From positions 1 through 31,718 of the IMG/VR virus record IMGVR_UViG_3300030103_002588: a stretch of DNA of 31,718 nt; one strand, written 5' to 3'. The DNA is from a virus. Below are positions 7,001-30,386 of this stretch, one piece after another. Both the position numbers and the translations under genes were made by a program. Each line of letters begins with the position of its first letter. Position 1 is the first letter of the stretch. The notes under the pieces were generated by a model. It saw only the letters and a program-made list of their open reading frames with translations. It had not been told where the DNA came from and did not search any database.

Positions 7001-10000
7001 CAGAGGTATAAATGGAACTCATTTATTTACAGATAAAAATGGATATGCAGTTAAATCTATAAAAGGTATAGCAGTTCATCTTGGTAGCAAGGTTTTTGTA
7101 AAAGGGAACGTTAACTTCTACACAGAGGATAATGCACCTAAGCCTGTGGATAACTTGCCCTCAGATGTAAAATATGTACCTTTTGAGACAGAAGTCTCAT
7201 TAATAGATAGAAAGAATCAGGAAAAGTTTAGTCAATTACGAGGTGAGATAAGAGCCAATATATCTGCAGCAACTGATAGCATAACTGGGTTAAGTGAACT
7301 GCAAAAGGCAGCAAACAAAGGTGATGAAGATGCTATGGTTGCGCTACAAGAAGTTGCAATAAACTCTGTTGATTATTTAACTCAAGCAATACCAAATGTA
7401 GAAGTAGAGTCCACCCCAGCCTATGGCTTGTACGGTAGTGATTTAGAGCCTGCCGTAGGATTGAAGATAACATTTGATGAAGGAAGAAAAGATCTAGCTT
7501 TATCTGCTCTTGAGAAATTTGCTCAAAACTTTAATCAAGAACAAATACATGTAAGACAAAGAGTGGCTGATAGGTTTGGAAGGTTTAATAATTTAGTTGG
7601 TTATCAGTTTGGTGATGGTAGTTACAACACACCTGTGGTTAATTTTAGATTAACAGAGTCCATACCAACAAAAGAGTTATCAAGTATAATAGATAAAACA
7701 GGATTGGCAGGTTTTACTGTCACTGATAAATCATTACAGGCTTATTATTTAGGAGACCCAAATGACAGAACAGCAATCAGAGACTTTAGAAAATCAGTTA
7801 GAGGAGCAAGAAAACTTCTTGGACCAAGAATTTCAAGCCTTGATACAAGAGTTGAAAGACTCTGGGCTTACGGTTCAGGATACGGGGCCACAAATTCCTA
7901 TGAACAAATTAGAGGCGACTTTCCACTCCCAGAGACCGACCAAGCAGACAAAACAGCAAACAGAATAGCTAATAGATTAGCGCAAAGACTAGTAGACCCA
8001 ACTGTACAGGCCAAGACTCTTACAGATAAACAGAAGAATCTACAGATGGAAATAGCAAAAGACTATGATGCTATGGGTATAAATAACTTAGACAACCCAA
8101 CTGTTAGAAGAGCATATACTGAATTAGCACAAGAAGTCACAGAGCAATACAATGCTATGCCTATAAAAGTAGAGATATATCAAGACGAAGGTGAGCCATA
8201 TACAGGCGCTAGAATGTCAGAGGCTATGAGAAAAGATATACTTGCCAATAACCATCTTTATATTTTTGGAACAGAAGCTGATACATTTGGGCCGGAAGGC
8301 GTGGTCTATGATAATCATCCCTTATTAGAGCCAACAAATATAGTAGATATAAATGGAAGACCTATGCTCGTTAATGATTTATTAAGAGCTGTCCACGATT
8401 ATTATGCTCATACGATGTCTACTGTTGGCTTTGGACCATTAGGAGAAGAGGCTGCATGGCGTAATCACATGATTATGACTAAAAGCCCTTACGCAAGATG
8501 GGCTTTGACATCAGAGACAAGGGGACAAAATAGTTGGGTTAATTTTAATGAAAGCGCTCTAGGTGTAGAGAAACTGTCAGATAGGCCGTTTGCAGAGCAA
8601 AAGGTTGATTTACTGCCTGTTAAATATCTTATTACTAATGACCCTGAGGTTGATGCTAGTCTTGGTGAATTAACAGATAGCAATTTTGATGCAGATCCTG
8701 AGAAATATTCTATAAAAGGCATAAAGCCTAGAGATTTAACAATATTAGATAGAATGGATGAGAATGGTCAATTTGAACAAAGGGCTAAAGTTGGCTCTGT
8801 AAAGATGACCGAGGCTGTAAAACAACTGCATGCAGAAAGAGGCAATATAACACTTGATATAAATAATGCAGAAGACAGAGAACTTGCTGAATTAGCTATG
8901 TTTGAAGAGCTAAAAGCTCAGGTAGATGCAGATGAATCAGCTATCGGTTGGTATGATGATAAGATTAAACTTGCAAAAGAGTTATATGCAATATCAATTC
9001 CTATAATTAAAACTGATAAGAACGCTGAAGCTGCATTTGAATTTGTACTAGCTATATCTTCTAACGGTGAGGCAGTAGTTGCGCAAAGCAATGCACTAAA
9101 AACACAAATGGAAAACTGGGAAAGAACTGGTGAACTATTATTAGAAAACCAAGGCAGTCAAGCATCCGCTATGGAAAAGTCTTTTTTAACATATAATATA
9201 TTAAAAAAAGAAAAAGGCATGACAGACTTGGAGATAAAGAAGTTCTTACAAGTTGTTAGATCAAAGAAAGAAATAGAAAACGATCCATTAATACAATCCT
9301 TAACAAGTCTCACTGGCGGTAAGGTTACATTTAAACAAGAGACAGCAGATGAAATGGTGCCAATGTCTTTTATATTTGGCAGTAAAATAGGTGCATTTTA
9401 CCAAAATATTATAGGTAATTATGAGTATTTGACTATGGATAGATGGTTTATGCGTTTTGTAAATAGAATATTTGGCGTACCATTTAGAACAATAGGAGAA
9501 ACAACTCTTGTAAAGAATAAACAAGATGCACTTAGAGAGTTTCAAAAGGCATTAGAGTCAGGCACAGAAGATGAAATTAGTAGAATTAAAGTTGCAACAG
9601 ATGAATTAGGCACAGATATAATTAATATATCTAATGTTGGAGAGCTTTCTACTTTAATAAATGGCAGATTTAATAAAGATATAGAGAGAATAAGAAGAAA
9701 GAAACTTGGAACAAAAGAATTTATAGATACATATAAAACAGAGTTTTTATCAAGAGCGCAAAGATTAGCTGAAAACTTAGAGACAAGATTACAAGAAACA
9801 CCAAAGACACCAACTAATAGAAAACAGTTTAGGGTTTTATATAATAGGGTTATTGATAGATATAACAGACAGACTAATAGACAAATAACTGTTGCTGATT
9901 CACAGGCCGTGTATTGGTACGGTGAAAAAAGATTATTTAAGAGCATCGGGGTAGCCCCGGGACAAGGCAGCGATAACGATTATGTAGACGCAGCAATAGC

Positions 10001-13000
10001 ATTTTTAAGAAAGGAAGGCATAGATGACCAAACCATTGGAGAAGCACTCCCCCCAACAGAGCGAGAGCGACTCGCTGATAAGCGAGGTGCAGGACAAGGA
10101 TCTATCGATTCTACTGGACAGGTTGATACAAATATCGGGCATGAAAAAAGAGAGTACACCGAAGAAGAGTTAGTTGATTATGATCCAGCTAGAGACGTTG
10201 ACCCTAAAGATTTAGAGTTAATTAAAGAAACAATAAACGATCAAAAGTTTGCCATGATATCAACTGGCAAACAAAACTCTGCATATGGTGCAACAGGAGA
10301 GCTGGGTAAGTATTTATATGGTGTTATAAATCTAGATAACAGAAGTCTTCCTGTATTTTTTGTAGATGGTAAGCATGAAGAAATACCTAGAGGAAATACA
10401 TTTTTGTATAGTGGATTTGGAAACGATCACATTATAGCAATAAGACCAACAACTGGTAAAAGTCATGAGCAAGAGTTATTAGAAACATTTAAATATAAAA
10501 ATATAAAAGATTTGTTTTATGATAATCTTGCAAAATTATACTACCAGCAGAATAGGGATGACGTTAACAATGGAGTAGAGATTGTTAACACTACAGCAAC
10601 AGGTGTTAGGCTAGAGTTTAATAGGACCCCACAAAGAGGGGCAAAGCAAAATAAATTTGTTATGCCTTTAAAATTTGTTAAACGAGGAGAAAAGTTAGAT
10701 GAAACAAGTCCTTCATTTAAGTTTGATTCTTTTGTTATAAGAACAGGTTATCCAGAAGAAAAACTATTTAAACAAAGTATGTTAAGCACCGCTTCTATGA
10801 ACCAGCAAGAAACACCTATGAGCGCTGAAATAGATCAAGGTATATCTAACACAAGAATAAAAATACAGTATGATAATTTATCTAGAGTTTTAGCAAAGGT
10901 TGGGCATAAGTTTACTTTAGGTAGAGTTGAGGAAGACGATTTAAGAAAAGCGGCTCAAAATTTATTGATTCAAGTACAAGATAGATTCTTGCCTATTGGT
11001 GCTTTAATGGACAAGCTAAGAGAAAATGGTGCTAAAATAACAGATGCTATGGATACTTATATGCAAGAAGAGTTATTTCATGGAATAGCAGGTGCAAAAG
11101 TAGAAAAAGCACAAAAAGAGTTTTTTGAACCAATGATTAAGACTATAAATACATTAGATGTTAATCAAGACTCATTAAATACATTATCAAGGATATCAGG
11201 ATTTTATAAAGCTGCTAGTGATGGCAGATATCCTAGTAAAAAAATGGCACTTGCAGATGCTATTCTTTATGCTGCGCATGCGAAAGAAAGGAATGATTAT
11301 TTAAAAAATCCAATTGCATCTGGTATGCATAACAACGAAGCTGATAGAATAAATAATTGGATATTAACATTACCTGATTCTGAAAAAACAAAGATAAAAA
11401 ATATTAAAAACTTTGCAAAGTCTATAGTCAAAAACACAAATGAAGAAAGAAAACAAGGCGGTCTTATTCCAGAGGTATTTACTGATAAAGAAGGTAATCA
11501 GTATGAGAGAATATATGAAAACTATGTACCTTTGAGAGGTGATTTAAATTTTGAAGATGAAGCAGATAGTGACAGCAAGAGAGAAGAAAGAGCTGAAAAC
11601 TTTGTAATACAAAATTTATTTGGTGCCACAAAGAGACCGGATCGTAAAGCACGGGGAAGGATAAGATCTAAAGAGGGCGAAGTAGAAGATTTTTATGCAG
11701 AAAATATTGTTGCTACATTATTTGCACAAAATAATAAATCTATAGCAGATGCTGAAAGAAACAAGGTTGGTTTAAGTTATTTAAATCTTGTTAGGGGTAT
11801 AGAAGATGGAACTACAGAAGTTAACGATAACTTAAAGAAAGAAATGCAACACATAAGTGCAGTTTATTTTAACAAAGATGATATACCAAAAGACTTAGGA
11901 GAAAAAGAACAATATTTAACTGTTAGAGAAAATGGCAGAAATGTGTACATAACACTTAATGATGCTAGAATAGCTAGAGCTATGAAAGGATTTATGACTC
12001 CTGATAGTGTAGGTAGCTTTACAAGAGCTTTAGGTAAACTAAATAGATATTTATCTAATATTAATACAACGTACAACCCATCTTTTGTTATACCAAACTT
12101 TGCTAGAGACTTAGGAACTGCTGGTGTGAATGTTCAGCAGTATGATGAAAAAGGTTTAATGTCCGAGGTTCTTAAGGGTGCGCTACCTGCGGTGAAAGGT
12201 ATATCTAAGAATCTAAGAGACGGAGATGTTGATAGCTTTTGGGCAAAAGAATACACAAAGTTTGTAGAGTCAGGTGGTAAAAACGCAACGAACCAAATGA
12301 ATGATCTTCAAGATCAGATGAATAGTATAAATAGTATACTTAGTGATGTATCTGATAATAGTAAGAAAGGAAAACTAGGATTAGTTAAGAAAGGCTTTGG
12401 TAAATTAGGCAAGTTCTTAGATGATTACAACACAGCAGTTGAGAATGGTGTGCGTGTTTCATTATATTCATCTCTTGTAAAAAGAGGAGTAAGCACGGCT
12501 AGAGCTGCACAGGCAGCAAGAAACTTAACAGTTAATTTTGCTAAGGGTGGAGAGCAAAAGCAATTTTTAAATTCATGGTATCTATTTTATAACGCATCAA
12601 TGCAAGGATCAATGGCATTGATAAACGCTGCGGTTAAGTCGAAGCGTGTAAGAAAAGTGTGGGCTGGATTATTTGTTTATGGAGTTATGCAAGATGCATT
12701 TAACTCATTGTTATCAGGTGATGAAGATGAAGATGGCATTAAGGATTATGATGAGCTTCCAAGATATATACTAGAGCATAACTTTGTATTACCGACATTT
12801 GGTTTAGCAGAAGATAAGTTTATTACAATACCATTAGCATATGGAATGAACTTAGCTGTAAACGCAGGAAGAGCTGTTTCGAGAGCTGCTAGGGGCGAGT
12901 ATACACCCGGGGAGGCTAGCCGGACTATATTTGGTACTGCATTTGAAAGTTTAAGTCCTTTTGGTGGTTTTGATAACTTTTATAACTTGGCAGCTCCTAC

Positions 13001-13709
13001 AGTGCTGGACCCATTTGTCAGTGTGGCTATCAACGAGGACTACAAAGGTGACCCTATATTTAAAGAATCACCTCAATTTGCATCAAGACCTACACCTAAT
13101 AGTCAGGCATATTGGTCAAGCACAAGTGGAACAGCAGTAACAATAGCTAATTTTTTAAACAGTATATCAGGAGGAGATGCAGTAGAAAGTGGCTTTGTTG
13201 ATCTTTCACCAGACGTTATGGAGTTTTGGTTTGATTATACAACTGGTGGTGTTGGAAGATTTGTTCAAAGATCACTAGAATCGCCTTTCAAGATATATGA
13301 CGCTATCAACGAGGACTTACAAGCACCACTAACTAGCGTGATACCTTTTGCAAGAAAGGTAATAGCATCTCCAAGTGAAAGGGAAGATGTATCAAGTTAT
13401 TTGGAAAATAGAAAAGCGTTATTCACGATACTGGCACGATACGACTTAGCCAGACGATCTGGTGATACAGAATTAACAAGAGAAATATTCAGGGATAATA
13501 GAGAGCAGTTAAGTATTGTTCCAAGACTCAAAGCAATAGACAACGCAAGAAACAGATTACTAAGACAAATAAGAGAGATAGAAAGAAACCCAAGACTAGA
13601 TGAGAAAGTTATAAAGAACCTCATAAAGATAAGGAGGGATAGGATTAACGATCTCATGAGGCGTGGGCTTATCTTAATGAGATCGGCTGGGTTTAGAGAG
13701 GCAAGTTAG
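4092..13709 (+). CDS. Giant polyvalent virion/ejection protein, 3205 residues
   Basis: One uninterrupted frame of 3205 residues, far longer than T7 gp16 (about 1300). Visible parts in order: glycine-rich hydrophobic segments at about 130-180 and 270-295; a Lys-rich coiled coil near 475-515; a zincin-like metalloprotease with HEIIHALFE (H664, E665, H668) and a possible third ligand in EEAIAELY (732-739); a conserved phage module with HDYYAH (1435-1440), GEEAAWRNH (to H1459) and SETRGQNSWVNF (from 1474); a YWYGEKRLF block near 1941; and a C-terminal region (about 2550-2960) with NPSFVIPNFARD and LTVNFAKGGE motifs resembling large-polyvalent-protein domain 38. An acidic Ca-binding-type loop lies at 2877-2888. 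Such proteins are injected with the phage DNA and carry several counter-defence or takeover domains. Individual activities are unproven. Confidence 0.8.
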   Translation: MGLYRTISQLDGLEYNFEIDGDNPSEEELLAIQKYIANRGQDNINKEVPDDGNLFTKGVSRGIDQLQRAYGDALVGVGKGFGIEGLVNYGQEVSEENTRQLEEQAKDARRLDSINNLSTFGDYAASTFGEQLPNLAPSVIGGVVGSIFGPAGTIGGIKVGTLIGAGLANLPYFYGTFVPSATDPVTGDVNQLKALTYAAPSAALDTLGDLLVTAGFAGKLLSGGGLFTRAGKGAGKGVIAEVPTEIGQEILQRHAEGKPLWNQEALDTYIEVAAAAGLVGGTVSSVGNIVGGDKDKQPDKISQLDSDDRIMAQQVQTMNTNAVNFINQQKDIESFKSTDGKFVTLSQLPDHIQDEIKDKRLQSISFGDIASGALAQQDVDNKVNKEILTQDELDVAIDRTNDLEADTKDLDYNKVKDAVKKEGQFTQAIAKKALKTKSKKPIPQSKINGIRDKLLQNNVIKKDKAKLVATLSEEQDIRIKSEQLKARVKSIMKDMDKLQKEKKKLGAIGDLSIDQVNRLDEINGEIDDLSKKYSDTSKAATNLASRSDRKLGKNVIRLGQIIPPLEAKSAFDNANFKTDEYKAKQNAVQKSLKASLAAIGLGNIKLDFKPILTPRGQRPEEAIAEGTVTEGVYSNKTIALAMEIYDPSLTETELQQRLGSVMNHEIIHALFELGVFTQQEQNILVNAAKNRKYVQIINGEKVERKYTYLDRANRMYQTKSDGSKYTAEEQAEEAIAELYRDFADGKIVLGGKPKTLFGRIINFFKTLFQSHKEAGFNKAGDLFRDIGSTNFQRRVSEAEKKSASPDALQDSIERESRLVGPSIIPDNVLETAQFIRSNKQNSTDQTKIMNKLFKNRQLEEGQMVTVRPNLNGFVQLDDGSIGMTQTVHPAKSYGTALGYDSVVAIKDSELMVSPQKRADIYKGVTRTGVKQDKVPMAGGYGGITNVSRQEIEDIVSNPDNILSFNPGSEARGINGTHLFTDKNGYAVKSIKGIAVHLGSKVFVKGNVNFYTEDNAPKPVDNLPSDVKYVPFETEVSLIDRKNQEKFSQLRGEIRANISAATDSITGLSELQKAANKGDEDAMVALQEVAINSVDYLTQAIPNVEVESTPAYGLYGSDLEPAVGLKITFDEGRKDLALSALEKFAQNFNQEQIHVRQRVADRFGRFNNLVGYQFGDGSYNTPVVNFRLTESIPTKELSSIIDKTGLAGFTVTDKSLQAYYLGDPNDRTAIRDFRKSVRGARKLLGPRISSLDTRVERLWAYGSGYGATNSYEQIRGDFPLPETDQADKTANRIANRLAQRLVDPTVQAKTLTDKQKNLQMEIAKDYDAMGINNLDNPTVRRAYTELAQEVTEQYNAMPIKVEIYQDEGEPYTGARMSEAMRKDILANNHLYIFGTEADTFGPEGVVYDNHPLLEPTNIVDINGRPMLVNDLLRAVHDYYAHTMSTVGFGPLGEEAAWRNHMIMTKSPYARWALTSETRGQNSWVNFNESALGVEKLSDRPFAEQKVDLLPVKYLITNDPEVDASLGELTDSNFDADPEKYSIKGIKPRDLTILDRMDENGQFEQRAKVGSVKMTEAVKQLHAERGNITLDINNAEDRELAELAMFEELKAQVDADESAIGWYDDKIKLAKELYAISIPIIKTDKNAEAAFEFVLAISSNGEAVVAQSNALKTQMENWERTGELLLENQGSQASAMEKSFLTYNILKKEKGMTDLEIKKFLQVVRSKKEIENDPLIQSLTSLTGGKVTFKQETADEMVPMSFIFGSKIGAFYQNIIGNYEYLTMDRWFMRFVNRIFGVPFRTIGETTLVKNKQDALREFQKALESGTEDEISRIKVATDELGTDIINISNVGELSTLINGRFNKDIERIRRKKLGTKEFIDTYKTEFLSRAQRLAENLETRLQETPKTPTNRKQFRVLYNRVIDRYNRQTNRQITVADSQAVYWYGEKRLFKSIGVAPGQGSDNDYVDAAIAFLRKEGIDDQTIGEALPPTERERLADKRGAGQGSIDSTGQVDTNIGHEKREYTEEELVDYDPARDVDPKDLELIKETINDQKFAMISTGKQNSAYGATGELGKYLYGVINLDNRSLPVFFVDGKHEEIPRGNTFLYSGFGNDHIIAIRPTTGKSHEQELLETFKYKNIKDLFYDNLAKLYYQQNRDDVNNGVEIVNTTATGVRLEFNRTPQRGAKQNKFVMPLKFVKRGEKLDETSPSFKFDSFVIRTGYPEEKLFKQSMLSTASMNQQETPMSAEIDQGISNTRIKIQYDNLSRVLAKVGHKFTLGRVEEDDLRKAAQNLLIQVQDRFLPIGALMDKLRENGAKITDAMDTYMQEELFHGIAGAKVEKAQKEFFEPMIKTINTLDVNQDSLNTLSRISGFYKAASDGRYPSKKMALADAILYAAHAKERNDYLKNPIASGMHNNEADRINNWILTLPDSEKTKIKNIKNFAKSIVKNTNEERKQGGLIPEVFTDKEGNQYERIYENYVPLRGDLNFEDEADSDSKREERAENFVIQNLFGATKRPDRKARGRIRSKEGEVEDFYAENIVATLFAQNNKSIADAERNKVGLSYLNLVRGIEDGTTEVNDNLKKEMQHISAVYFNKDDIPKDLGEKEQYLTVRENGRNVYITLNDARIARAMKGFMTPDSVGSFTRALGKLNRYLSNINTTYNPSFVIPNFARDLGTAGVNVQQYDEKGLMSEVLKGALPAVKGISKNLRDGDVDSFWAKEYTKFVESGGKNATNQMNDLQDQMNSINSILSDVSDNSKKGKLGLVKKGFGKLGKFLDDYNTAVENGVRVSLYSSLVKRGVSTARAAQAARNLTVNFAKGGEQKQFLNSWYLFYNASMQGSMALINAAVKSKRVRKVWAGLFVYGVMQDAFNSLLSGDEDEDGIKDYDELPRYILEHNFVLPTFGLAEDKFITIPLAYGMNLAVNAGRAVSRAARGEYTPGEASRTIFGTAFESLSPFGGFDNFYNLAAPTVLDPFVSVAINEDYKGDPIFKESPQFASRPTPNSQAYWSSTSGTAVTIANFLNSISGGDAVESGFVDLSPDVMEFWFDYTTGGVGRFVQRSLESPFKIYDAINEDLQAPLTSVIPFARKVIASPSEREDVSSYLENRKALFTILARYDLARRSGDTELTREIFRDNREQLSIVPRLKAIDNARNRLLRQIREIERNPRLDEKVIKNLIKIRRDRINDLMRRGLILMRSAGFREAS
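7762..7968 (+). CDS. Candidate nested gene in +1 frame of the giant gene
   Basis: A 68-codon ORF lies wholly inside the giant gene, in the +1 frame. Its ATG is preceded by a full AGGAG at 7751-7755 with a six-base spacer, which is unusual for a chance internal ORF. The product is protein-like: a Glu/Gln-rich amphipathic helix or coiled coil (LENQLEEQENFLDQEFQALI) and a polar tail. The host frame at this point is Arg-rich and also looks natural, so both could be used. An overlapping gene, an internal regulatory peptide or a chance ORF are all possible. The mirrored composition (Arg codons in one frame, Glu/Gln in the other) could also arise passively. Confidence 0.3.
   Translation: MTEQQSETLENQLEEQENFLDQEFQALIQELKDSGLTVQDTGPQIPMNKLEATFHSQRPTKQTKQQTE
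11818..11833. promoter_or_regulatory. AAGTTA-N4-TAACTT palindrome inside the giant gene
   Basis: Exact match to the dispersed 16-bp palindrome, with spacer ACGA. It is the only exact copy found inside a coding region (it encodes part of a VNDNL stretch). It may be chance or a real internal site. Confidence 0.35.
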
Positions 13710-15115: not shown

Positions 15116-15131
15116 AAGTTACAGTTAACTT
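15116..15131. promoter_or_regulatory. Dispersed palindrome abutting a start codon
   Basis: Exact AAGTTA-CAGT-TAACTT, spanning the stop of the HTH gene and ending two bases from the ATG of the PD-(D/E)XK gene (leftward). A protein bound here would block both ribosome access at the DNA-encoded leader and local transcription. It sits where a ribosome site would normally be. Confidence 0.6.
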
Positions 15132-15352
15132 TCAGAAAGTTCAGACTTACTTTTTACCCAATCTTGTACTTCCTTTTTCTTCCAAAGTTTTTTATTAGAT
15201 AAAATATTATATCCCTTTGGAAAAGTTTCATCAGATTTTATTAGTCTGTAAAAAGATGTTCTGCTTAAATGAAGATAGTTTTGAAGAGCCGTTAGTGTAA
15301 GCCATTCATCATCTATACTACTATCATTACTATCATAATTATTGTCTGACAT
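15125..15352 (-). CDS. AlpA/excisionase-like HTH DNA-binding protein
   Basis: 75 residues from the ATG at 15352, which has GAGGG just upstream; a longer frame from 15406 would overlap the previous gene by 44 bases and is less likely. After an acidic Asn/Asp/Ser-rich tail, residues about 17-65 (WLTLTALQNYLHLSRTSFYR, then KSDETFPKGYNI and KLWKKKEVQDWV) match the MerR-like winged helix of AlpA/Xis regulators. It should bind DNA and is the only obvious small transcription-factor-like protein in the window. That makes it the first candidate to read the dispersed palindrome, whose second-best-placed copy overlaps this gene's stop. That link is inference. Confidence 0.7.
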   Translation of the reverse strand: MSDNNYDSNDSSIDDEWLTLTALQNYLHLSRTSFYRLIKSDETFPKGYNILSNKKLWKKKEVQDWVKSKSELSES

Positions 15353-15362
15353 ATTGCCCTCA

Positions 15363-15686
15363 CTAGAATGGTTTGTTACTCTCTTTTTCTTTAGGAACAT
15401 TTGCAATTATTCTGAGCCATGGTTTGCCACTTTTAGACATCTTCTTCCAACCACTCAAATCCATATCTAGATGAAACATTTTGTCTTTATCTACCTTAGA
15501 CCAATCAATGTTAGGGTTTTGTTGCTCCCATTCCATAACTTGTTTTTTTCTTTTTGCAATCAAATCATCTAATACATCAGATGTAATATGCAAATACCCA
15601 TTGTAGTCAGGAGAATTTTCTCCTCTTCTTTGTTCATTAGTAAATAAAGAACCACTAGGGTTATAATCTCTTTCTTTGATAGCCAT
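15363..15686 (-). CDS. DUF736-like / ssDNA-binding-style phage protein
   Basis: 107 residues. The order SGSLFTNEQR, then SPDYNGYLHIT, then a variable helical insert (DLIAKRKKQVMEWEQQ), then LSGWKKMSKSGKPWLRIIAN resembles the DUF736 pattern (short strands forming a small barrel, GxxWxK-x-SK-x-GKxxLxI). Those proteins are often next to ssDNA annealing and binding genes. No separate SSB gene is visible, so this could fill that role, but that is inference. AGGAG precedes the ATG, which overlaps the stop of the annealing-protein gene by one base (TAATG). Confidence 0.5.
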   Translation of the reverse strand: MAIKERDYNPSGSLFTNEQRRGENSPDYNGYLHITSDVLDDLIAKRKKQVMEWEQQNPNIDWSKVDKDKMFHLDMDLSGWKKMSKSGKPWLRIIANVPKEKESNKPF

Positions 15687-16765: not shown

Positions 16766-17695
16766 TTATTCTCCTATATATTGTTGACAAAACTGTGCAA
16801 CAGAGCAGTAATTACCCTTGCACCTATTATATTCGCCTTGGCGAAATTCTATTTCTAAATGTGTTTTTTTGACATAGGCTTTTTCGGTTTCATTGTGCCA
16901 ATCCATATATTTGATAGCCTCTTCTTCGCTATCTAAAACTCTTAATGCCCTCTTCTGACCTTTCTTTTTTACTGCCCATGCATCATTCTTTTTCCATCTT
17001 TCTTCGTCAGAGCAAAGAGGCATTTCTTCGTTTGTGTCAAAGTTTACCTGAGCATCTTGATGCTTGTTAATCCTATCCCTGATATAACTTTCTCTTTCTT
17101 CTTTGCTCCACAAAGGTATGTCCACAACAACTATTGGTGTCTGTGGATAGTTTTCTTTTTTCTCAGCATCTCTTCTGCTCCAATCTCTCAGGATTGCACA
17201 TATTTTGAGTTGCTTAACTTCTTTTTTTTGTTTTGAAAATTCTGTAAATATTCTGTGGTAATTGTTTTCACATAGGTAAGCATAACAATTTAACTGCCTT
17301 TCCCACTCTATTTTTCCGTAAATCACAGACCATACTGAAGTAACTTTATAATCAACGATAGTAATTTTTCCGTCTTTTTTATCTATCTCTTGTCTATCTA
17401 TAGCACCTGACAAAGTCCAACCATCAATTTCAGAGTAAAGACGTTGCTCCGTTTCAGAATAAATATCATCTTCTGATCTTTCTAATATTGAATGTACTGA
17501 AGTTCCGAAGATTGACCATATCTGATCTACTGCATCAATCTCTATCTGATCGTTATACTTTTGTCTCATTAAAGATATCTTAGGACTATCTATCAAAGAC
17601 GTTACTGATATGTCTGCTTTGCCTTTGTTGTATTTGTCGTTTTTTATAAAATCAACAAATGGTTGTGGCAAACCAAATTTATTGGTAATCTTCAT
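16766..17695 (-). CDS. RecB/Cas4-like PD-(D/E)XK exonuclease
   Basis: 309 residues. The pattern LPQPFVDFIKNDKYNKG-ADISVTSL at the start is typical of phage PD-(D/E)XK exonucleases. Active-site motifs: GTSVHSILE with H68, SGAIDRQE with D100, IVDYKVTS with D115 and K117, and QLNCYAYL with Q134. The C-terminus has C-x4-C-x5-C (YNRCKGNYCSVAQFCQQY), suggesting part of an Fe-S or Zn cluster, although a fourth Cys partner is not obvious. It would resect double-stranded DNA ends to feed the annealing protein. First gene of the leftward recombination operon, with AGGAG before the ATG and a promoter just upstream. Confidence 0.85.
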   Translation of the reverse strand: MKITNKFGLPQPFVDFIKNDKYNKGKADISVTSLIDSPKISLMRQKYNDQIEIDAVDQIWSIFGTSVHSILERSEDDIYSETEQRLYSEIDGWTLSGAIDRQEIDKKDGKITIVDYKVTSVWSVIYGKIEWERQLNCYAYLCENNYHRIFTEFSKQKKEVKQLKICAILRDWSRRDAEKKENYPQTPIVVVDIPLWSKEERESYIRDRINKHQDAQVNFDTNEEMPLCSDEERWKKNDAWAVKKKGQKRALRVLDSEEEAIKYMDWHNETEKAYVKKTHLEIEFRQGEYNRCKGNYCSVAQFCQQYIGE

Positions 17696-17719: not shown

Positions 17720-17747
17720 GGTATACCATGCAGTACCATAATGTCAA
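17720..17747 (-). promoter_or_regulatory. Leftward promoter for the recombination operon
   Basis: On the minus strand, TTGACA (17742-17747) and TATACC (17720-17725) are separated by 16 bp, giving a predicted start near 17713 and a leader of about 18 nt that contains AGGAG. The -35 box lies inside the first codons of the divergent rusA-like gene, so the two transcripts overlap at their origins. Confidence 0.6.
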
Positions 17748-18133
17748 ATAAAATATATCCAAGTATCAAATTTGTTGTCGAGGGAGAACCAGCATCAAAG
17801 GCGAACTCACGAAAAATAGTAAAATTTGGAAAAAGATTTGGTGTAATTAAATCTGAAAAAGCTAGAAATTATGTGAAGTCTTTTCAAGAACAATGCCCTA
17901 AATTAGAAAAACTTATTGAACTTGATGTCATTGTTGAGATAAAAATATATTATCAATCTAGGAGACCTGATTTAGATGAAAGCGTTATCTTGGATTGTAT
18001 GCAAGGTTTTATTTATGCTAACGACAGGCAAGTTAAGCAAAAACATATATACTGGGGTCTCGATAGGGAGCAACCAAGAACTCACATCAGAGTTACGCCT
18101 ATGGAGGCTAGTCGTATGCCAAGCGATTTCTGA
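17741..18133 (+). CDS. rusA: RusA-family Holliday junction resolvase
   Basis: 130 residues from the ATG at 17741. The core RRPDLDESVILDCMQGF (74-90) followed by IYANDRQV (91-98) gives D77, D79 and D95 as the metal-binding acidic residues of RusA. The family resolves four-way junctions made during recombination and packaging. The usual DLDN is DLDE here, and the usual DD is ND. The upstream leader shows no Shine-Dalgarno, so translation may start on a very short leader; TACCAT is repeated just before the ATG. Its 3' end overlaps a second coding region in the +1 frame. Likely used to resolve recombination intermediates before TerL acts. Confidence 0.8.
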   Translation: MSNKIYPSIKFVVEGEPASKANSRKIVKFGKRFGVIKSEKARNYVKSFQEQCPKLEKLIELDVIVEIKIYYQSRRPDLDESVILDCMQGFIYANDRQVKQKHIYWGLDREQPRTHIRVTPMEASRMPSDF

Positions 18134-18335
18134 TAGCTATCTAGGAACGAGTAAAGAAAAATTAGCTATTGGAATTTGGATTAGTGGCAATGATTGCGAT
18201 CATGTATGCGACCTCGCAGATTTAAATGCCGAGAATATCAAAAAAGCAATCAAAGAAATTTTAGAGAGCAAACCTATCGTTGGAAGATATCTAGGCGAAA
18301 AACTAAAAAAAATAATTCAAAATTATTCTAACTAG
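18108..18335 (+). CDS. Small HTH-like protein in +1 frame of rusA, start unclear
   Basis: The frame is open from inside rusA to a TAG at 18333-18335. The part after the rusA stop looks like real protein: CQAISDSYLGTSKEKLAIGI, then a WISGNDCDHVCDLADLN segment and an AENIKKAIKEIL helix, a pattern I associate with small helix-turn-helix phage proteins (W-x-x-x-D, CxLAxLxxxxI). No ATG, GTG or TTG occurs in this frame between position 18018 and the protein-like region. GGAGG at 18103-18107 lies inside rusA at the point where a shift could happen. Options are +1 frameshifting from rusA, a start at a non-standard codon, or a sequencing indel. The start given is arbitrary. Confidence 0.45.
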   Translation, partial: LVVCQAISDSYLGTSKEKLAIGIWISGNDCDHVCDLADLNAENIKKAIKEILESKPIVGRYLGEKLKKIIQNYSN

Positions 18336-18400
18336 TATAACTAGTATATACTAGTATATTTATTTATTACTAGTATTAGTATTACTAGTATATACTAGTA
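18331..18400. repeat. ACTAGT cluster 1 (six copies) upstream of the helicase
   Basis: ACTAGT starts at 18331, 18340, 18350, 18369, 18384 and 18394, mostly inside TACTAGTATA contexts; several steps are 9-10 bp, close to a helical turn. The 17-base ACTAGTATATACTAGTA occurs at 18340 and 18384. The first copy overlaps the stop codon of the preceding ORF. Pure A/T sequence separates the copies. The position directly before the primase-helicase gene suits a replication origin or an operator array. Confidence 0.8.
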
Positions 18401-18408
18401 TAGGGCAA

Positions 18409-18424
18409 AAGTTATCGATAATTT
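18409..18424. promoter_or_regulatory. Degenerate copy of the dispersed palindrome
   Basis: AAGTTA-TCGA-TAATTT, one mismatch from AAGTTA-N4-TAACTT, immediately after ACTAGT cluster 1. It contains the palindrome TTATCGATAA. Confidence 0.4.
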
Positions 18425-18551: not shown

Positions 18552-20330
18552 ATGGAAAACAACGAAAGCATCAAGTCTGATGCCCTGAGATTGGGGTTAG
18601 GTCAGCACAAAATATTCTGCCCTTTTTGTTCTAGTAAAAGGAAAAAGAAACATATCAAAACATTATCATTAAAGGTTGAGGACAACTCGATAGTTTATAA
18701 TTGTTGGCATTGTGCAGAAGATGGTGCAATAAAAATCAAACACAACAATTTTAGATTAATTAGGAGAGAACCTTTGAGCAAGGCAATAGAGGATAATTGG
18801 GATATCATAGATAACAAAGCAATAAGCTATTTAAAAACACGAGGGATATCAAAAGATACTGCTATTTCCTCAGGTCTTAAATTAACTAAAAAATTTATAT
18901 CCACGAGCAATAAAGAAGAAGATTGTATAGTATTTCCGTACTTCAATAATGGTGTTATCGAGTATGCAAAAATGAGAAGTTTCCCAACAAAGGGATTTAC
19001 AAGTCATGGGTCAGCATTAAACTTTTACAACATTGACAGTATCAAGGAAAAAGATTGGGTAATAATTTGTGAGGGGGAAATTGATTGTCTTAGTTTTAAA
19101 GAGATAGGACTTAATCAGGTTGTGTCCATACCTCATGGAGCAGTTGCTAAAGTTGTTGACGGCAAGATTGACCCCAAGGAAGATACAAAGTTTAAATTTA
19201 TTTGGAATGCAAAAGCAAAGTTAGATAAATGCTCAAAAATTATATTGGCATTAGATAACGATAAGTCAGGTCAGGCAATGTCTGAGGAGATTGCTAGGCG
19301 AGTTGGCAAGGATAGATGTTGGAAAATAGAATATCCAAAAGATTGTAAAGATGCGAATGAGGTTTTAACAAAACATGGTGCAGAAAAATTAGATAAGATA
19401 GCTACAACACCAATACCATATCCCGTATCGGGATTGTATGATGCCTCACATTTTTTTGAGGAGCTTGACGATATCTACGAGCAAGGCATAGGCAAGGGTG
19501 TTTCGACAGGTTATCCTGAGGTAGACGAATTATACACCATTGTTGAGGGTCAGCTATCTGTGGTTACAGGACACCCCTCAAGTGGCAAATCTGAGTTTAT
19601 AGATCAGATAATGATTAATATTGCCAAGGAAAAAGGTTGGAAGTTTGGCATATGCTCTTTTGAAAATGAGCCTAGAATACACATATCAAAGCTGATTAGT
19701 AAGTATTTAAGAAAACCATTTTTTGATGGTGCAACTGAGAGAATGACACCTGCTGATCTAGCCGTAGGCAAGAAATTTGTTCAAGAACATTTTAGTTTTT
19801 TGTATCAGGCAGATGGTTCTTTGTCTTCGTTAGACAGTATTATTGAAAGAATGAAAGTTGCAGTAATGAGATATGGGGTCAGGGGTATTATCATTGACCC
19901 ATACAACTATATTGCTAGAGACCCCAATACTTCTGAGACAGATTGGATTTCAGATATGTTAACAAAGCTGAGAGTTTTTGCTCAGGCACATAGCATACAC
20001 ATTTGGTTTGTTGCACACCCAACAAAGATGATGCGAAAAGATGACGGCACAGTACCACCACCAAAGGGTTACGATATATCAGGGAGTGCCTCATGGTTTG
20101 CAAAGGCAGATGTAGGATTAACTGTTCATAGACCTAATCCATCTAACTCAAATATTAGTGAGGTCTTGATATGGAAGTGTAGGTTTTCATGGGTCGGTTC
20201 GATAGGCGAATGTAGCCTGATGTTTGATAAAGCAACCACATCATATAACGGCATGGGTAAATTTTTTGAAACTAATAAAATGCTTATGCCTGACATTGTA
20301 GAAGATGATGAAAAAGAAGTACCATTCTAA
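18552..20330 (+). CDS. Primase-helicase (T7 gp4-like)
   Basis: 592 residues from the ATG at 18552 (GGAG upstream); an in-frame TTG at 18525 lacks a ribosome site. A zinc ribbon CPFC (23-26) with CWHC (51-54) starts the primase. TOPRIM motifs are CEGEIDCLSF (E174, D178) and ALDNDKSG (D235, D237). The DnaB/gp4 helicase half has Walker A GHPSSGKS (340-347), Walker B IIIDPYNY (D449) and the HPTKM and SWFAKADVGLTVHR motifs. It unwinds the fork and primes the lagging strand. It is the only replisome enzyme in the window, with no DNA polymerase beside it. The gene lies downstream of ACTAGT cluster 1 and a palindrome-covered promoter. Confidence 0.93.
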   Translation: MENNESIKSDALRLGLGQHKIFCPFCSSKRKKKHIKTLSLKVEDNSIVYNCWHCAEDGAIKIKHNNFRLIRREPLSKAIEDNWDIIDNKAISYLKTRGISKDTAISSGLKLTKKFISTSNKEEDCIVFPYFNNGVIEYAKMRSFPTKGFTSHGSALNFYNIDSIKEKDWVIICEGEIDCLSFKEIGLNQVVSIPHGAVAKVVDGKIDPKEDTKFKFIWNAKAKLDKCSKIILALDNDKSGQAMSEEIARRVGKDRCWKIEYPKDCKDANEVLTKHGAEKLDKIATTPIPYPVSGLYDASHFFEELDDIYEQGIGKGVSTGYPEVDELYTIVEGQLSVVTGHPSSGKSEFIDQIMINIAKEKGWKFGICSFENEPRIHISKLISKYLRKPFFDGATERMTPADLAVGKKFVQEHFSFLYQADGSLSSLDSIIERMKVAVMRYGVRGIIIDPYNYIARDPNTSETDWISDMLTKLRVFAQAHSIHIWFVAHPTKMMRKDDGTVPPPKGYDISGSASWFAKADVGLTVHRPNPSNSNISEVLIWKCRFSWVGSIGECSLMFDKATTSYNGMGKFFETNKMLMPDIVEDDEKEVPF

Positions 20331-20778
20331 AAACGTCTACCAACGAGACAACAAAACCCTCAAGCCTGAGTTTATAGGCAACACTAACAATGTCAGAATG
20401 AGAGTAGTAGACCAAAATGTTTTGGATAAACTACTTTTGAATGACACAATTTGCCTGAGCCATTTTAAAACTTTGGATAAACTTTTAGGAGATTACAATA
20501 AATCAGGTTTGGTTGGGGTAAAGGCTATGAATTATATGCCTCGTGTTGTTGGTGATAACAAAAATTTTGATGGGCATAATCTTCTCAGATCAAAAGTTAT
20601 GGGTTGTTTAAAGTATGTAAAAAAAGAATTGCATAAACAACATTACATAATTTTGAATAAACTTCTTTCTAATCAGGAATTATTATCCAAGGACTTGGAA
20701 TGGTTGGGGAATAAAGAAAATGTGGAAAGTCTATCTACGATAATAGATAAATTTTATTTGATGTGGAATAATAGTTGA
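20305..20778 (+). CDS. Unknown protein downstream of the primase-helicase
   Basis: 157 residues. The first ATG overlaps the helicase 3' end by 26 bases, with only a weak AGAAG upstream; an ATG-ATG doublet starts it. Basic and helical: RMRVVDQNVLDKLLLND, LSHFKTLDKLLGDYNKSGL, then MNYMPRVVGDN and LHKQHYIILNKLLSNQELLS. The helical pattern faintly recalls DUF6456-like or sigma-fold phage proteins that often sit near replication genes, but I cannot assign it. Co-transcription with the helicase suggests a helper in replication or late-gene control. The stop codon overlaps a TTGACA promoter-like box. Confidence 0.6.
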   Translation: MMKKKYHSKNVYQRDNKTLKPEFIGNTNNVRMRVVDQNVLDKLLLNDTICLSHFKTLDKLLGDYNKSGLVGVKAMNYMPRVVGDNKNFDGHNLLRSKVMGCLKYVKKELHKQHYIILNKLLSNQELLSKDLEWLGNKENVESLSTIIDKFYLMWNNS

Positions 20779-23388: not shown

Positions 23389-24513
23389 TTAGATATTGAG
23401 GAAAGTTATTTCCCCAATCGGTGGTGTCTTTGCCCTGAGGTCAGTTGATACCCAAAGTAATGGGTAGTCGACATACTCAGGAAACTCATAAAACCCCATG
23501 TCTGTAATGCAAACCATACTGTCGACATTTACATTATTGTCTTCAATATATTTGAACACACACATTGGGTCAGTACCCCCACGACCTTTTACGTTTAGGT
23601 TCTCGATAATATCTCCTCTCTCATACCTCTCTTGTTTTTGGATAGAGGTATCAGCATAGTAAACAGTTATCGAGTTGGGTTGCATATCCTCAGAGATAGC
23701 ATTGATTTCTCCGAGGGCATGGGATAGCTCTTTTCTAGAAACAGATGCTGAGGTATCCACCCAAATAATCACATCTCCACAAGACATCTTCAAAGTGCTT
23801 GGATTGTAAATATTGAAACAATGATAAGCTCTTCTATTCGGTCTAGCATATGTGTAGTTCTCAGGTTGATCTCCCCCAACAACTCTTCTAATTACAGAAG
23901 ACCAATCAACTTGCGACCTTTCCATTTCTTTTATGATATCTTTGATATCACTTGGAAGATTGCCAATTGATTTAGTATTCTGTACTGCCATGGTTACTTG
24001 TTGCTTAATGATAGCCTCTTCTTTTTTAATCTGTTCTTCGGACATATCATTAGGCATAACCATACCCCAATTACATTGGTTAGGTTTTTTCTCAGCCTCG
24101 CTTTCCAATAGCTTATATATTTTCTCAGCACCCATATCATTATACTTGGGGTCATATAAGCCATCTTTCGGCATGGTCATACCTGACTTAATCAAGATTG
24201 AGTTAATGGCATAATCAGTAGCTATATTCCATAGCTCCTTATCCCTAGTACTCATTCTAAGATGATGCCTCAAAACTCTATGCATAGCCTCATGGCATCT
24301 AACAAAGTCTAGCTCTGCCTCAGTTAATTTGTCAGACCACTCAGGATTGTAGAAGATATCTTTTCCATCAGTTGCCATAGTTGGAATATCTATCTTTTCT
24401 ATCATTTCCATTTGAGTAAGGATTGAGAAATAAAATCCCCAACCCTTTTTCTCTTTGTCGACCATTAACTTGATATTAGATCTAGATATTTTGGTTTTTA
24501 AATCCTTAACCAT
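23389..24513 (-). CDS. Metallopeptidase-VWA protein (DUF2201 type), MoxR partner
   Basis: 374 residues. The N-terminal half has a zincin-like motif HEAMHRVLRHH (H74, E75, H78) and WNIATDYAIN (95-104), as in DUF2201 N-terminal putative metallopeptidases. The C-terminal half is a von Willebrand A-like domain with MIDAS residues DTSAS (D253, S255, S257), GRGGTD (310-315) and ITDMG (D338). VWA proteins of this kind pair with MoxR ATPases and act in metal insertion, complex assembly or target remodelling; cyanophage CobS/CobT-like pairs are a loose parallel. AGGAG precedes the ATG, and the gene starts eight bases after the MoxR gene's stop. Domain calls strong, target unknown. Confidence 0.85.
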   Translation of the reverse strand: MVKDLKTKISRSNIKLMVDKEKKGWGFYFSILTQMEMIEKIDIPTMATDGKDIFYNPEWSDKLTEAELDFVRCHEAMHRVLRHHLRMSTRDKELWNIATDYAINSILIKSGMTMPKDGLYDPKYNDMGAEKIYKLLESEAEKKPNQCNWGMVMPNDMSEEQIKKEEAIIKQQVTMAVQNTKSIGNLPSDIKDIIKEMERSQVDWSSVIRRVVGGDQPENYTYARPNRRAYHCFNIYNPSTLKMSCGDVIIWVDTSASVSRKELSHALGEINAISEDMQPNSITVYYADTSIQKQERYERGDIIENLNVKGRGGTDPMCVFKYIEDNNVNVDSMVCITDMGFYEFPEYVDYPLLWVSTDLRAKTPPIGEITFLNI

Positions 24514-24521
24514 TTTATCTC

Positions 24522-25565
24522 CTATAATACAAGTTCTCTTAGTTTCTGATTAGTAGACATCTCTAGTCTTAGTTCCTTGTTCTGCAACAATTCCCTATCC
24601 TTAGCTACACTATCCTTAATGAAGTAAGCTAAAAACTCTCCATCAAGTCTATTTAAAAACTTTAGCATTGCACCAATGTTTTTATCTGTAACCTTGCTGA
24701 CCAAAGATGAAACAGTTGCAAACTGAATTGCTACCTCTGTAGGTAATTGTATACCCTCAGGGTTCTTTATAAGCTCGTCAATGTCAGGGCATTTCTCATG
24801 CAACCTGATATGAGTAAATAAAGATGCAGATGCAGTTTCGCCAATCTGACAACATACGGCAGTATAAAGATCATCTTCGTCTAAATCCCATTGGAGAATG
24901 TCGCTAGTTCTCTCAAGTGATCTAGGTGTTGGGAATGCATCAGCATCACGATCAAACTTATGTAGAAACTCAGGCTGAAATCTAACCCATGAAACAACCC
25001 TATGATCTTTCTTGTTAGCTGACATATAGTTTGTCCAATCATCTAGGTTAGGCTCGATAGCAAAAGAAGTTATTCTATCTTTAAGATGCATAGGCATTTG
25101 ATTAACCCCTGATCTATCCGACATTCTATTCCCAGCACAAACAACGATATCCCCTATCGGAATATGATAATCTCCAATACGATATTCATCAGCTATTGTT
25201 GCGAAAATATTCATGTTTAAAATAGGTGCTTGGGGTAGCTCGTCAAAGAAATACATGACACCACTATAACCCTCGTCTATCTTAGCTTGTCTTTCAGCAT
25301 CACTAAGCAACCATTTAGGTCTAAGTGTCTTCATCTTATCCCCATCAGGCATCTGCAAACCTCCGACATCTGACGGCTCGTAAGATGCTAGATTAGTAGT
25401 TACAAGCCATAACTTTAATGTGTTAGCTATCTTTTTAAATGTGTAGGTTTTGCCTATCCCCATTGTTCCTATGCCATAAGGACAGATAGGTAATTTACCC
25501 TCAGGTCTATTGATTGTTTTTCTAATAGCCTCGATTATTATTCTTTCAGCTTGTTTAATTCTCAT
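24522..25565 (-). CDS. MoxR-like AAA+ ATPase
   Basis: 347 residues from the ATG at 25565 (AGGAG eight bases upstream); a GTG three codons earlier has no spacer. Walker A GIGTMGIGKT (31-40), Walker B MYFFDELPQA (104-113 with D108, E109), sensor-type CAGNRMSD (N146) and an arginine in LKDRI (R164) define an active MoxR/CobS-class ATPase. It likely forms a hexamer that uses ATP to remodel a protein complex recruited by the VWA partner encoded next. The C-terminal half is a helical lid (SLFTHIRLHEKC, AIQFATVSSLVSKV). In phages such genes are often mislabelled as cobalt chelatase. Confidence 0.9.
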   Translation of the reverse strand: MRIKQAERIIIEAIRKTINRPEGKLPICPYGIGTMGIGKTYTFKKIANTLKLWLVTTNLASYEPSDVGGLQMPDGDKMKTLRPKWLLSDAERQAKIDEGYSGVMYFFDELPQAPILNMNIFATIADEYRIGDYHIPIGDIVVCAGNRMSDRSGVNQMPMHLKDRITSFAIEPNLDDWTNYMSANKKDHRVVSWVRFQPEFLHKFDRDADAFPTPRSLERTSDILQWDLDEDDLYTAVCCQIGETASASLFTHIRLHEKCPDIDELIKNPEGIQLPTEVAIQFATVSSLVSKVTDKNIGAMLKFLNRLDGEFLAYFIKDSVAKDRELLQNKELRLEMSTNQKLRELVL

Positions 25566-25566
25566 A

Positions 25567-25836
25567 TTAAGCACTCCTATTTTTTAAAGTTACACCATTA
25601 ATTTGGTTTGTTTTGTAGAAAGTCTTGCCACTTTTTAAAGTGATAGCTCCCTGATCTAGTCTAAATCTACGATACTCATTCTTACGAAAATCGTAGACAG
25701 TTACGAGGTTAGGAACATCTCTATCCTCATACTTTAGAACACCCCAAAACTGACGTTCTGAGCCGTCTAATTTTTTAAAAACACCTTTGCAGATCTTGCC
25801 TTTAAAGTGCTTTGTAATTTCTAAATTTTTATTCAT
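25567..25836 (-). CDS. Sm/SH3-like small barrel protein (WYL_2/DUF2693-like)
   Basis: 89 residues: KGVFKKLDGSERQFWGVLKY, then NLVTVYDFRKNEYRRFRLDQ, then a last strand AITLKSGKTFY. The order (KxDGxxR, VTVYD, Y/F-R-x-F-R-L-D) matches the small beta-barrel phage proteins called WYL_2 or DUF2693, whose function is unknown. AGGAG precedes the ATG. It overlaps the upstream gene by eight bases and ends just before the ribosome site of the MoxR gene. Confidence 0.5.
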   Translation of the reverse strand: MNKNLEITKHFKGKICKGVFKKLDGSERQFWGVLKYEDRDVPNLVTVYDFRKNEYRRFRLDQGAITLKSGKTFYKTNQINGVTLKNRSA

Positions 25837-27850: not shown

Positions 27851-28375
27851 ATGTCAGATAAAAAAGATAAGCCGAAATTAAAATTAGTCAGCAGTAATAA
27901 AGTCAAGAAAAGTTCCAAGCCTGAGCTGACGGCAAAGCAGTTGGGTTTTTGTAAAGACATAGTTGGAATGGGAAAAGATAAAGATGGCAATCCCAAAAAG
28001 CCAATGAGTTTAGTTGATGCATATGTAGCAAATTATAATGTTAGTCCTAAAACCAAGAACAACACTATAAGAGATATGGCAAGTAAGCTAAAAGCAAACC
28101 CATTGATTACCCATACAATTTCTAGAATGTATGATGAACTAAAGCAGATAAACAAAGTGTCGGCGATAAAAAAAGAGGAAGTAATAATTAGGAAGTTAGA
28201 AGAGTTCATGAATAATGAAGAGTTTTCAGATACTGCAAGGGTTAGATCAGCAGAATTGATTGGCAAAAGTTTAAGTATGTTTACTAATGTTACTGAAATA
28301 AAAGAAAGTGATAAGAGTTCTGTAGAAGTTGAACAGCAACTTAGGGAAAAACTATCTAAACTTTTAAAAGAGTAG
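27851..28375 (+). CDS. Terminase small subunit
   Basis: 174 residues. After a Lys-rich tail comes LTAKQLGFCKDIVG, SLVDAYVANYNV, and RDMASKLKANPLITHTISRM, the HTH arrangement of small terminases (T-x-K-Q-xx-F, A-Y, A-S-x-L-xx-N-xx-I). A helical oligomerisation part (EEVIIRKLEEFMN, RVRSAELIGKSLSMF) and an acidic end follow. It would recognise the packaging site and hand DNA to TerL, encoded 490 bp downstream. The ATG has only a weak GAG upstream, and the palindrome sits directly before it. Confidence 0.75.
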   Translation: MSDKKDKPKLKLVSSNKVKKSSKPELTAKQLGFCKDIVGMGKDKDGNPKKPMSLVDAYVANYNVSPKTKNNTIRDMASKLKANPLITHTISRMYDELKQINKVSAIKKEEVIIRKLEEFMNNEEFSDTARVRSAELIGKSLSMFTNVTEIKESDKSSVEVEQQLREKLSKLLKE

Positions 28376-28519: not shown

Positions 28520-28654
28520 ACTAGTTTTTACTAGTACTAGTACTAGTATACCTTCCTTATACTAGTATTATATTATTATACATAGTATTAACTAGTACTA
28601 GTATTAAACTATATACTAGTATATACTAGTAACTAGTAATACTAGTATACTAGT
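28520..28654. repeat. ACTAGT cluster 2 (twelve copies) between TerS and TerL
   Basis: ACTAGT starts at 28520, 28530, 28536, 28542, 28561, 28591, 28597, 28615, 28625, 28632, 28641 and 28649. Copies are tandem (6-bp steps) or 7-10 bp apart, with two larger gaps. The 17-base ACTAGTATATACTAGTA at 28615 also occurs twice in cluster 1. A degenerate GTTA-N5-TAAC lies at 28505-28517. The rest of 28376-28519 has a CCACC/GGTGG hairpin (28419-28438 area) and a GGCTAGCC palindrome. The place, between the terminase subunits, suits a packaging site. Confidence 0.85.
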
Positions 28655-28666
28655 GGAGTAGAAAAT

Positions 28667-28873
28667 TTGTCAAACATTATTTACTTAGATGACTACAGAA
28701 AATTTATTCCTGAAGATGAGCCTGAGTTACAGGACCCTATCGTAATAGGATGGGATGAAGACGACAGTCTTTTCATTGCTTCGTCTGTTGACACAGACAA
28801 GTGTTTGTGGATGATAGACTTAGCTAAAAAGATTATTGAGAGCAGTCCACCAAATATAAAAAACAATGAATGA
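28667..28873 (+). CDS. Small acidic phage protein with TTG start
   Basis: 68 residues. The start is TTG at 28667, supported by GGAG nine bases upstream, right after the last ACTAGT. The sequence NIIYLDDYRKF, then PIVIGWDEDDSLFIASS and TDKCLWMIDLAKKIIE looks like a known small phage protein found beside terminase genes, function unknown. It overlaps terL by eight bases, so the pair is coupled. Confidence 0.65.
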   Translation: MSNIIYLDDYRKFIPEDEPELQDPIVIGWDEDDSLFIASSVDTDKCLWMIDLAKKIIESSPPNIKNNE

Positions 28874-30386
28874 TATTGCCAAGATAATTCAAAAGAACAT
28901 GAGCCAGATAAGCTCACTGCCTCCTGATGAGAAGATGGAGGTATTGAAACTTCTTGAAGAATATGAGCAAGCAAAACAAAGAGAAGAAGCCAGAGATAGT
29001 TTTCTGCCATTCGTTAAATCACAATGGGCAGCATTTATACATGGAAGACATCATGAGATTATGGCAGATGCTTTTGAAAGAGTGGCCCGGGGTGATTTGA
29101 AAAGACTGATTATTAACATGCCACCCCGTCATACCAAGTCAGAGTTCGCAAGTTATTTATTTCCTGCATGGTTTTTAGGGAGGTACCCCAATAAAAAAAT
29201 TATCCAGACCGCACACACAGCCGAATTATCTGTAGGATTTGGAAGAAAGGTTAGGAATCTTATACAGTCTGAAGATTTTCAAAAAATTTTCGCAGGCGTT
29301 ACATTGTCCTCTGACTCAAAGGCCGCAGGTAGATGGAACACTAATAAGGGTGGAGAATACTTTGCTATAGGTGTAGGTGGTGCCGTAACAGGAAAAGGCG
29401 CTGATGTTCTTGTAATAGATGACCCTCACTCAGAACAAGAGGCAACAATAGGTGATTACAATCCTGAAGTTTATGACAAAGTGTACGAATGGTATACATC
29501 AGGACCAAGACAGAGACTCCAGCCGGGTGGCTCTATTATTTTGGTTATGACAAGATGGTCAAAAAGAGATTTAACAGGGCAAATATTAAAAAATTACACA
29601 CAAAGAGAGGGATCAGGTGAGTGGGAAGTCATAGAATTACCTGCAATAATGCCATCAGGTGAGGCTTTGTGGCCAGAATTTTGGAAAAAAGAAGAACTAG
29701 ACAGTTTAAAATCAGAATTACCCGTATCAAAATGGAACGCACAGTACCAGCAAGACCCCACATCGGAAGAAGGAGCGCTAATTAAGCGTGAATGGTGGAG
29801 AGAATGGACAAAAAACGACCTTCCACCTTGCGATTCGATCATACAGTCATGGGATACAGCGTTTTTAAAGACACAGAGAGCGGATTATAGCGCCTGCACT
29901 ACATGGGGCGTCTTCCACGGGCCGGATGACGAGGGCAAAACACGACCAAATTTAATTTTAATTGATGCATTTAAAGAAAAACTTGAATTTCCTGATTTAA
30001 AACGGGCAGCATATGATAAATACTGGGAATTTGAGCCAGATCAAATGATTATTGAGGCAAAAGCAGCGGGATCACCCTTGATTTTTGAACTTAGAGCCAT
30101 GGGAATACCAGTTACGGAGTTTACACCGAGCCGTGGACAGGATAAGATAGCAAGAGTTAACAGTGTGACAGATTTATTTGCAAGTGGGGTTGTTTGGTAC
30201 CCACCGACTAGATGGGCAGAAGAAGTTATTGAGGAATGTGCGTCTTTTCCTGCTGGAGATCATGACGATTTAGTAGACTCAACAACACAGGCGCTGTTAA
30301 GATTTAGACAAGGTGGCTGGATCAGAACAACTATGGATGACTGGGACGATGAACCTAAATACAGAAGACCTGTGGAGTATTATTGA
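28866..30386 (+). CDS. terL: Terminase large subunit
   Basis: 506 residues. The ATPase has a deviant Walker A MPPRHTKSEFAS (K91, S92) and Walker B VLVIDDPH (D185, D186), with a coupling-type MTRWSKRDL (228-236). The nuclease domain has QSWDTAF (D330), MIIEAKAAG (E397) and GDHDDLVD (D465, D467, D468), an RNase H-like metal centre. It pumps DNA through the portal and cuts the concatemer. The first 40 residues are helical and would contact TerS. Stop overlaps the next start (ATGATGG area). Length is usual for the family. Confidence 0.95.
   Translation: MNDIAKIIQKNMSQISSLPPDEKMEVLKLLEEYEQAKQREEARDSFLPFVKSQWAAFIHGRHHEIMADAFERVARGDLKRLIINMPPRHTKSEFASYLFPAWFLGRYPNKKIIQTAHTAELSVGFGRKVRNLIQSEDFQKIFAGVTLSSDSKAAGRWNTNKGGEYFAIGVGGAVTGKGADVLVIDDPHSEQEATIGDYNPEVYDKVYEWYTSGPRQRLQPGGSIILVMTRWSKRDLTGQILKNYTQREGSGEWEVIELPAIMPSGEALWPEFWKKEELDSLKSELPVSKWNAQYQQDPTSEEGALIKREWWREWTKNDLPPCDSIIQSWDTAFLKTQRADYSACTTWGVFHGPDDEGKTRPNLILIDAFKEKLEFPDLKRAAYDKYWEFEPDQMIIEAKAAGSPLIFELRAMGIPVTEFTPSRGQDKIARVNSVTDLFASGVVWYPPTRWAEEVIEECASFPAGDHDDLVDSTTQALLRFRQGGWIRTTMDDWDDEPKYRRPVEYY

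Follow-up and report, generated by a model that had tools for sequence, protein, structure and literature searches.

Why should one short palindromic repeat stand at two places in a phage genome, once ahead of the primase-helicase gene and again, about 10 kb away, between the genes for the two terminase subunits? The stretch of DNA analysed here (the window; 31,718 bases of IMG/VR virus record IMGVR_UViG_3300030103_002588) carries such a pair of arrays of the hexamer ACTAGT, and the best explanation is that this phage lineage has a single sequence-specific system for which they serve as the two cis sites. On the basis of sequence comparisons, we consider the arrays to be a probable pair of replication origins of the oriL/oriR kind of Bacillus phage SPP1, read by one phage protein, and give this reading a probability of roughly 0.55.

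ACTAGT occurs 19 times in the window, compared with 10 +/- 3.1 copies expected by chance, and 18 of these copies fall within the two arrays (sites 1 and 2), which comprise the following features, all unstranded:

18331-18402, site 1, six ACTAGT palindromes upstream of the primase-helicase gene; the least stable 80-bp stretch of the window
18340-18355, 16-bp perfect palindrome ACTAGTATATACTAGT in site 1
18384-18399, second site 1 copy of the 16-bp palindrome ACTAGTATATACTAGT
28520-28654, site 2, twelve ACTAGT in the terS-terL gap; ranks second in the window for low stability among 80-bp stretches
28520-28535, variant pair ACTAGTTTTTACTAGT in site 2
28615-28630, 16-bp palindrome in site 2, identical to the site 1 copies

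Site 1 spans 72 bp, is 82% A+T and contains, as a preliminary description of this locus had stated, six copies of the hexamer (starting at 18331, 18340, 18350, 18369, 18384 and 18394). The 9-10-bp spacing given in that description applies to three of the five steps (9, 10 and 10 bp) and fails for the other two (19 and 15 bp). Two ACTAGT copies set one helical turn apart form the 16-bp palindrome. The 17-base unit that the two clusters were said to have in common is real: ACTAGTATATACTAGTA occurs exactly at 18340 and 18384 in site 1 and at 28615 in site 2, with 0 occurrences expected in shuffles. When all viral contigs were searched with this 17-mer, around half of the matches were in contigs without any window gene; these were set aside, as by a rough estimate chance alone would produce a few tens of matches in such a collection.

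Several simple explanations for the arrays were rejected. Shuffles and permutations rule out chance, and no Rfam match indicative of a structured RNA was found. The suggestion that one cluster was copied from the other is not borne out for a recent block duplication: the longest exact match between the sites is 21 bp, their copy numbers and steps differ, and the units that they have in common are all short. The trp operator of E. coli, which is bound by TrpR, also has ACTAGT half-sites in a palindrome, with a step of 8 bp; the palindrome unit here has a step of 10 bp and the sites are arrays. Steps of 8 bp are absent from site 1 and account for 1 of 11 in site 2, so a TrpR operator is excluded by its spacing.

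Site 1 is flanked by a small open reading frame (ORF) and the primase-helicase gene, with rusA, an exonuclease gene and an SSB-like gene to its left, and site 2 is flanked by terS and a small gene that precedes terL:

15363-15686, minus strand, SSB-like protein (weak PHROG 18154 match; in 19 of 19 relatives)
16766-17695, minus strand, PD-(D/E)XK exonuclease
17741-18133, plus strand, RusA-like Holliday junction resolvase (rusA)
18015-18335, plus strand, small ORF of a conserved phage family, overlapping rusA and ending at site 1 (longest frame 17976-18335, exact start uncertain)
18552-20330, plus strand, primase-helicase (Toprim and DnaB_C; PHROG 239)
27851-28375, plus strand, terminase small subunit, terS (weak PHROG 51 match; assigned by position and homologues)
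28667-28873, plus strand, small acidic protein between site 2 and terL
28866-30386, plus strand, terminase large subunit, terL

By TerL, the closest named phages are the pelagiphages HTVC027P and HTVC023P, phage 023Pt_psg01 and phage DSL-LC04, at 52-55% identity. A 99% relative, G001, is 59.5 kb in length; neither a DNA polymerase nor a known initiator family is among the family matches listed for it, so the polymerase of the host is probably used.

A related primase-helicase is encoded in 70 viral contigs. The comparison covered the stretch from rusA to terL in 23 records, one of them the window, and for 19 records it took in more, up to the complete record. Matching arrays were present both upstream of the primase-helicase gene and in the terS-terL gap in 14 of the 19 records; four (G013, G016, G039 and G042) have the terS-terL array alone and one (the G017 group) has the primase array alone. 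The two-cluster layout for which the preliminary description had pointed to related contigs thus recurs in most of them, and relatives with a single cluster, which that description had named as a refuting case, make up 5 of the 19 records. It is common, not obligatory, and neither site is obligatory at its place, the terS-terL array (18 of 19 records) being slightly more constant than the primase array (15 of 19). Relatives whose primase-helicase is down to around 57% identical still have an ACTAGT array immediately before its gene, and further relatives have other A+T-rich palindromes at the same place. The second array, in every record that has it, lies between terS and terL. Extra genes are inserted beside this array in G013: two related minus-strand ORFs (L135 4587-6004) that presumably carry motifs reminiscent of sulfotransferases.

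The array motif varies between lineages, whereas both arrays within a genome carry matching versions. About eight motif types cover the eleven lineages that have matched pairs:

ACTAGT, the window and G001
TACTAGTCTAGTA, G011
ACTAGTTATAACTAGT, G033 and G034, with a close variant in G009
CTAG-N7-CTAG, G015 and G053
CTAATTATTAG, G037
CTCTAATAG, G038
TATTATAATA, G040
GGTATACC, G043
AGGGACTA, G008
AATATTTATATATATT, G032

In most genomes the motif matches nothing beyond its two arrays. CTAG-N7-CTAG is found 2 + 4 times at the two sites of G015 (57 kb) and 2 + 5 times at those of G053 (47 kb), with no copy elsewhere; the motif of G011 (2 + 2) and those of G037 and G038 (1 + 2 each) are likewise confined to the two sites in the available genome. 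The ACTAGT hexamer is too short for the same confinement. These motif names were picked after looking at the sequences; the permutation tests are motif-free. When the 260 bp preceding the primase gene were used in a motif-free search, the terS-terL gap was the top match in most relatives. With 9-mers, a first test placed some A+T-rich pairs (for example, G032 and G040) within the range of shuffled sequences. A stricter test, which weights G/C matches and removes row and column effects, was applied to 16 representatives: the diagonal sum (trace) was 4.23, compared with a permutation standard deviation of 0.49, and none of 20,000 permutations reached the observed value. Without the ACTAGT genomes the sum was 2.34 (standard deviation of 0.35; 0 of 20,000).

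This change of motif in step at both sites across lineages strongly supports, at the level of sequence, the earlier proposal that one protein—here, one encoded by the phage—reads both clusters. Parallel change at two places is difficult to account for unless a single DNA-binding protein recognises both or the sites undergo gene conversion. Wholesale copying is unlikely because copy numbers and steps differ; concerted evolution or gene conversion between the two arrays may nonetheless contribute.

Duplex stability bears on what such a protein might do. When 80-bp segments were ranked by nearest-neighbour energies across the available sequence of each genome, the two sites took ranks 1 and 2 for low stability in 8 of the 14 two-array genomes (the window, G001, G009, G034, G032, G040, G037 and G038, which include relatives of 55-66 kb). 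The sites rank high, not top, in G033, G015, G053 and G008, and the effect is less marked in G043 and, for site 2, in G011. In G013, the low-stability A+T-rich DNA is missing together with array 1, and nowhere in the 58-kb record is stability lower than at site 2. We read site 1 as an origin because iterons and the DNA that melts most readily in the genome lie next to a primase-helicase gene there; the origin-like look of this site had been noted earlier and holds for the iteron array, the lowest duplex stability in the window and the surrounding replication module. GC skew, previously put forward as a check, follows gene direction and is uninformative about an origin.

What recalls oriL and oriR of SPP1 is that the late region has another site built of these iterons. 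Those origins are 12-13 kb apart and have the same repeats and an A+T-rich unwinding element; gp38 binds both, and oriR, which lies in the late region, is thought to trigger the switch to concatemers, a switch that involves a resolvase, an exonuclease, a recombinase and an SSB (PMC6316719, PMC3485210). In the phages described here, as in SPP1, the same repeats and A+T-rich DNA occur at two sites separated by about 10-13 kb, one of them in the replication module and the other in the late region; genes for a replicative helicase, a resolvase, an exonuclease and an SSB-like protein lie beside the early site; and no phage DNA polymerase was found. These phages differ from SPP1 in several respects. 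SPP1 oriL is inside the initiator gene, whereas array 1 is between genes; array 2 lies between terS and terL; a fused primase-helicase takes the place of the helicase and host DnaG of SPP1; no relative of gp38 was recognised; and the motif turns over across lineages. Another partial parallel is satellite phage P4, in which the alpha protein binds ori1 and crr through an origin-binding domain of its own. As in P4, two separate cis sites have the same short iterons and there is a primase-helicase gene nearby; unlike alpha, the primase-helicase here has no recognised extra domain, none being matched in Pfam or PHROGs.

On the model of paired origins, the palindromic iterons of site 1 (18331-18402) would be recognised by a DNA-binding initiator that the phage encodes, the A+T-rich array would melt, the primase-helicase encoded beside it would load and the host polymerase would extend. 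The same initiator on site 2 (28520-28654) would create a second origin or a fork barrier and help the switch to concatemer synthesis, for which the genes next to site 1 would supply the RusA resolvase, the exonuclease and the SSB-like protein. The small ORF at 18015-18335 may encode the reader or its loader.

As a hypothesis drawn from its sequence and position, this small ORF is the leading candidate for either role. Its family is found at this place in 15 of 19 records and is missing in G008 and G043, both of which have matched array pairs. In Wolbachia phage WO, the genes for an AAA ATPase and a primase-helicase come immediately after that of a homologue. The predicted structure has five helices (pLDDT of 93.6); a fold search returned no significant PDB match and no clear DNA-binding match, and the best viral match was an uncharacterised phage protein. 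When protein divergence was compared with motif, no protein family and no DNA-binding candidate stood out. The SSB-like, exonuclease and rusA genes score as high or higher, and with several unrelated genes doing so the correlation reflects relatedness. Two other candidates were set aside. The AlpA-like helix-turn-helix (HTH) protein (15125-15406) is disfavoured as it is 70% identical in G001, the arrays of which keep the same motif, and the ORF at 20305-20778 is absent from 7 records, 5 of which have matched pairs. The AlpA-like gene changes far more quickly than its neighbours, most of which are 92-97% identical between these near-identical phages.

Because both sites are at gene starts, control of transcription is possible, and the arrays could be operator clusters through which one phage regulator controls the primase operon and the terL operon. 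Each array is followed closely by a rightward gene; array 2 of G009 and G013 has a leftward gene on one side and a rightward gene on the other; and a regulator acting as a dimer could well bind 16-bp palindromes. Repressors, moreover, commonly change their specificity fast. We nevertheless think this unlikely: 6-12 copies, irregular steps and the lowest stability of the genome exceed the needs of a switch, and sigma-70-type promoter sites in the arrays are not above chance (4 compared with 5.3 expected, and 7 compared with 6.0 expected). The role of regulator sites is better fitted by a different palindrome, AAGTTA-N4-TAACTT, which with at most 1 mismatch has 9 copies in the window compared with 0.26 expected, mostly at gene boundaries (11818, 13710, 15116, 18409, 18476, 20884, 23360, 27821 and 28497), and which also occurs in G001, G011 and G033; this set looks like dispersed regulator sites. 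The palindrome copies that had been reported to follow array 1 are the two at 18409 and 18476: they are present, and belong to this other palindrome.

A packaging role is doubtful. On this reading TerS would bind array 2 as the pac site, where packaging starts, and would also bind array 1, so that packaging is linked to DNA under replication. The unvarying position of array 2 between terS and terL, the presence of TerS in 19 of 19 records and its much faster divergence relative to TerL (44% compared with 92% in G011) are in keeping with this. However, the distance from terS to the array ranges from about 0.15 to 2.1 kb, with no fixed place next to or inside terS, which counts against the packaging site of the preliminary description; a pac site leaves the array before the primase gene (15 of 19 records) unexplained; and, once relatedness is corrected for, the divergence of TerS does not follow the motif. 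A combined scheme seems about as improbable to us. In it the terS-terL array would be the constant element, at once a replication origin or fork barrier and the place where packaging starts, and one phage protein would couple replication to packaging; the DNA specificity of that protein would have been replaced time after time, giving about eight motif types, and on each occasion both sites would have followed. It is very improbable that the arrays are unconnected with the start of replication and serve segregation, for instance as centromere-like sites, or act against the host: iteron arrays also occur at partition sites, but no partition protein is among the families listed for G001 (59.5 kb).

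The earlier interpretation as a whole is thus partly supported. Phage origins are hard to predict from sequence, and matched arrays at two conserved positions would provide a rule for finding candidates in uncultured marine phages. If the arrays are paired origins, they would extend the two-origin plan of SPP1 to a marine phage family with a fused primase-helicase, and the repeated parallel change of motif at both places would be a natural experiment in the co-evolution of a DNA-binding initiator and its sites. We found no description of the two-array layout in these phages in the open-access subset of the literature.

Two further features of the window are conserved in relatives. A single gene (4092-13709) encodes a protein of 3,205 amino acids and takes up about one-sixth of the expected 60-kb genome. 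At 23389-25574, adjacent genes for a MoxR-like ATPase and a VWA-like/DUF2201 protein lie in the leftward operon and are conserved in 16 of 19 relatives.
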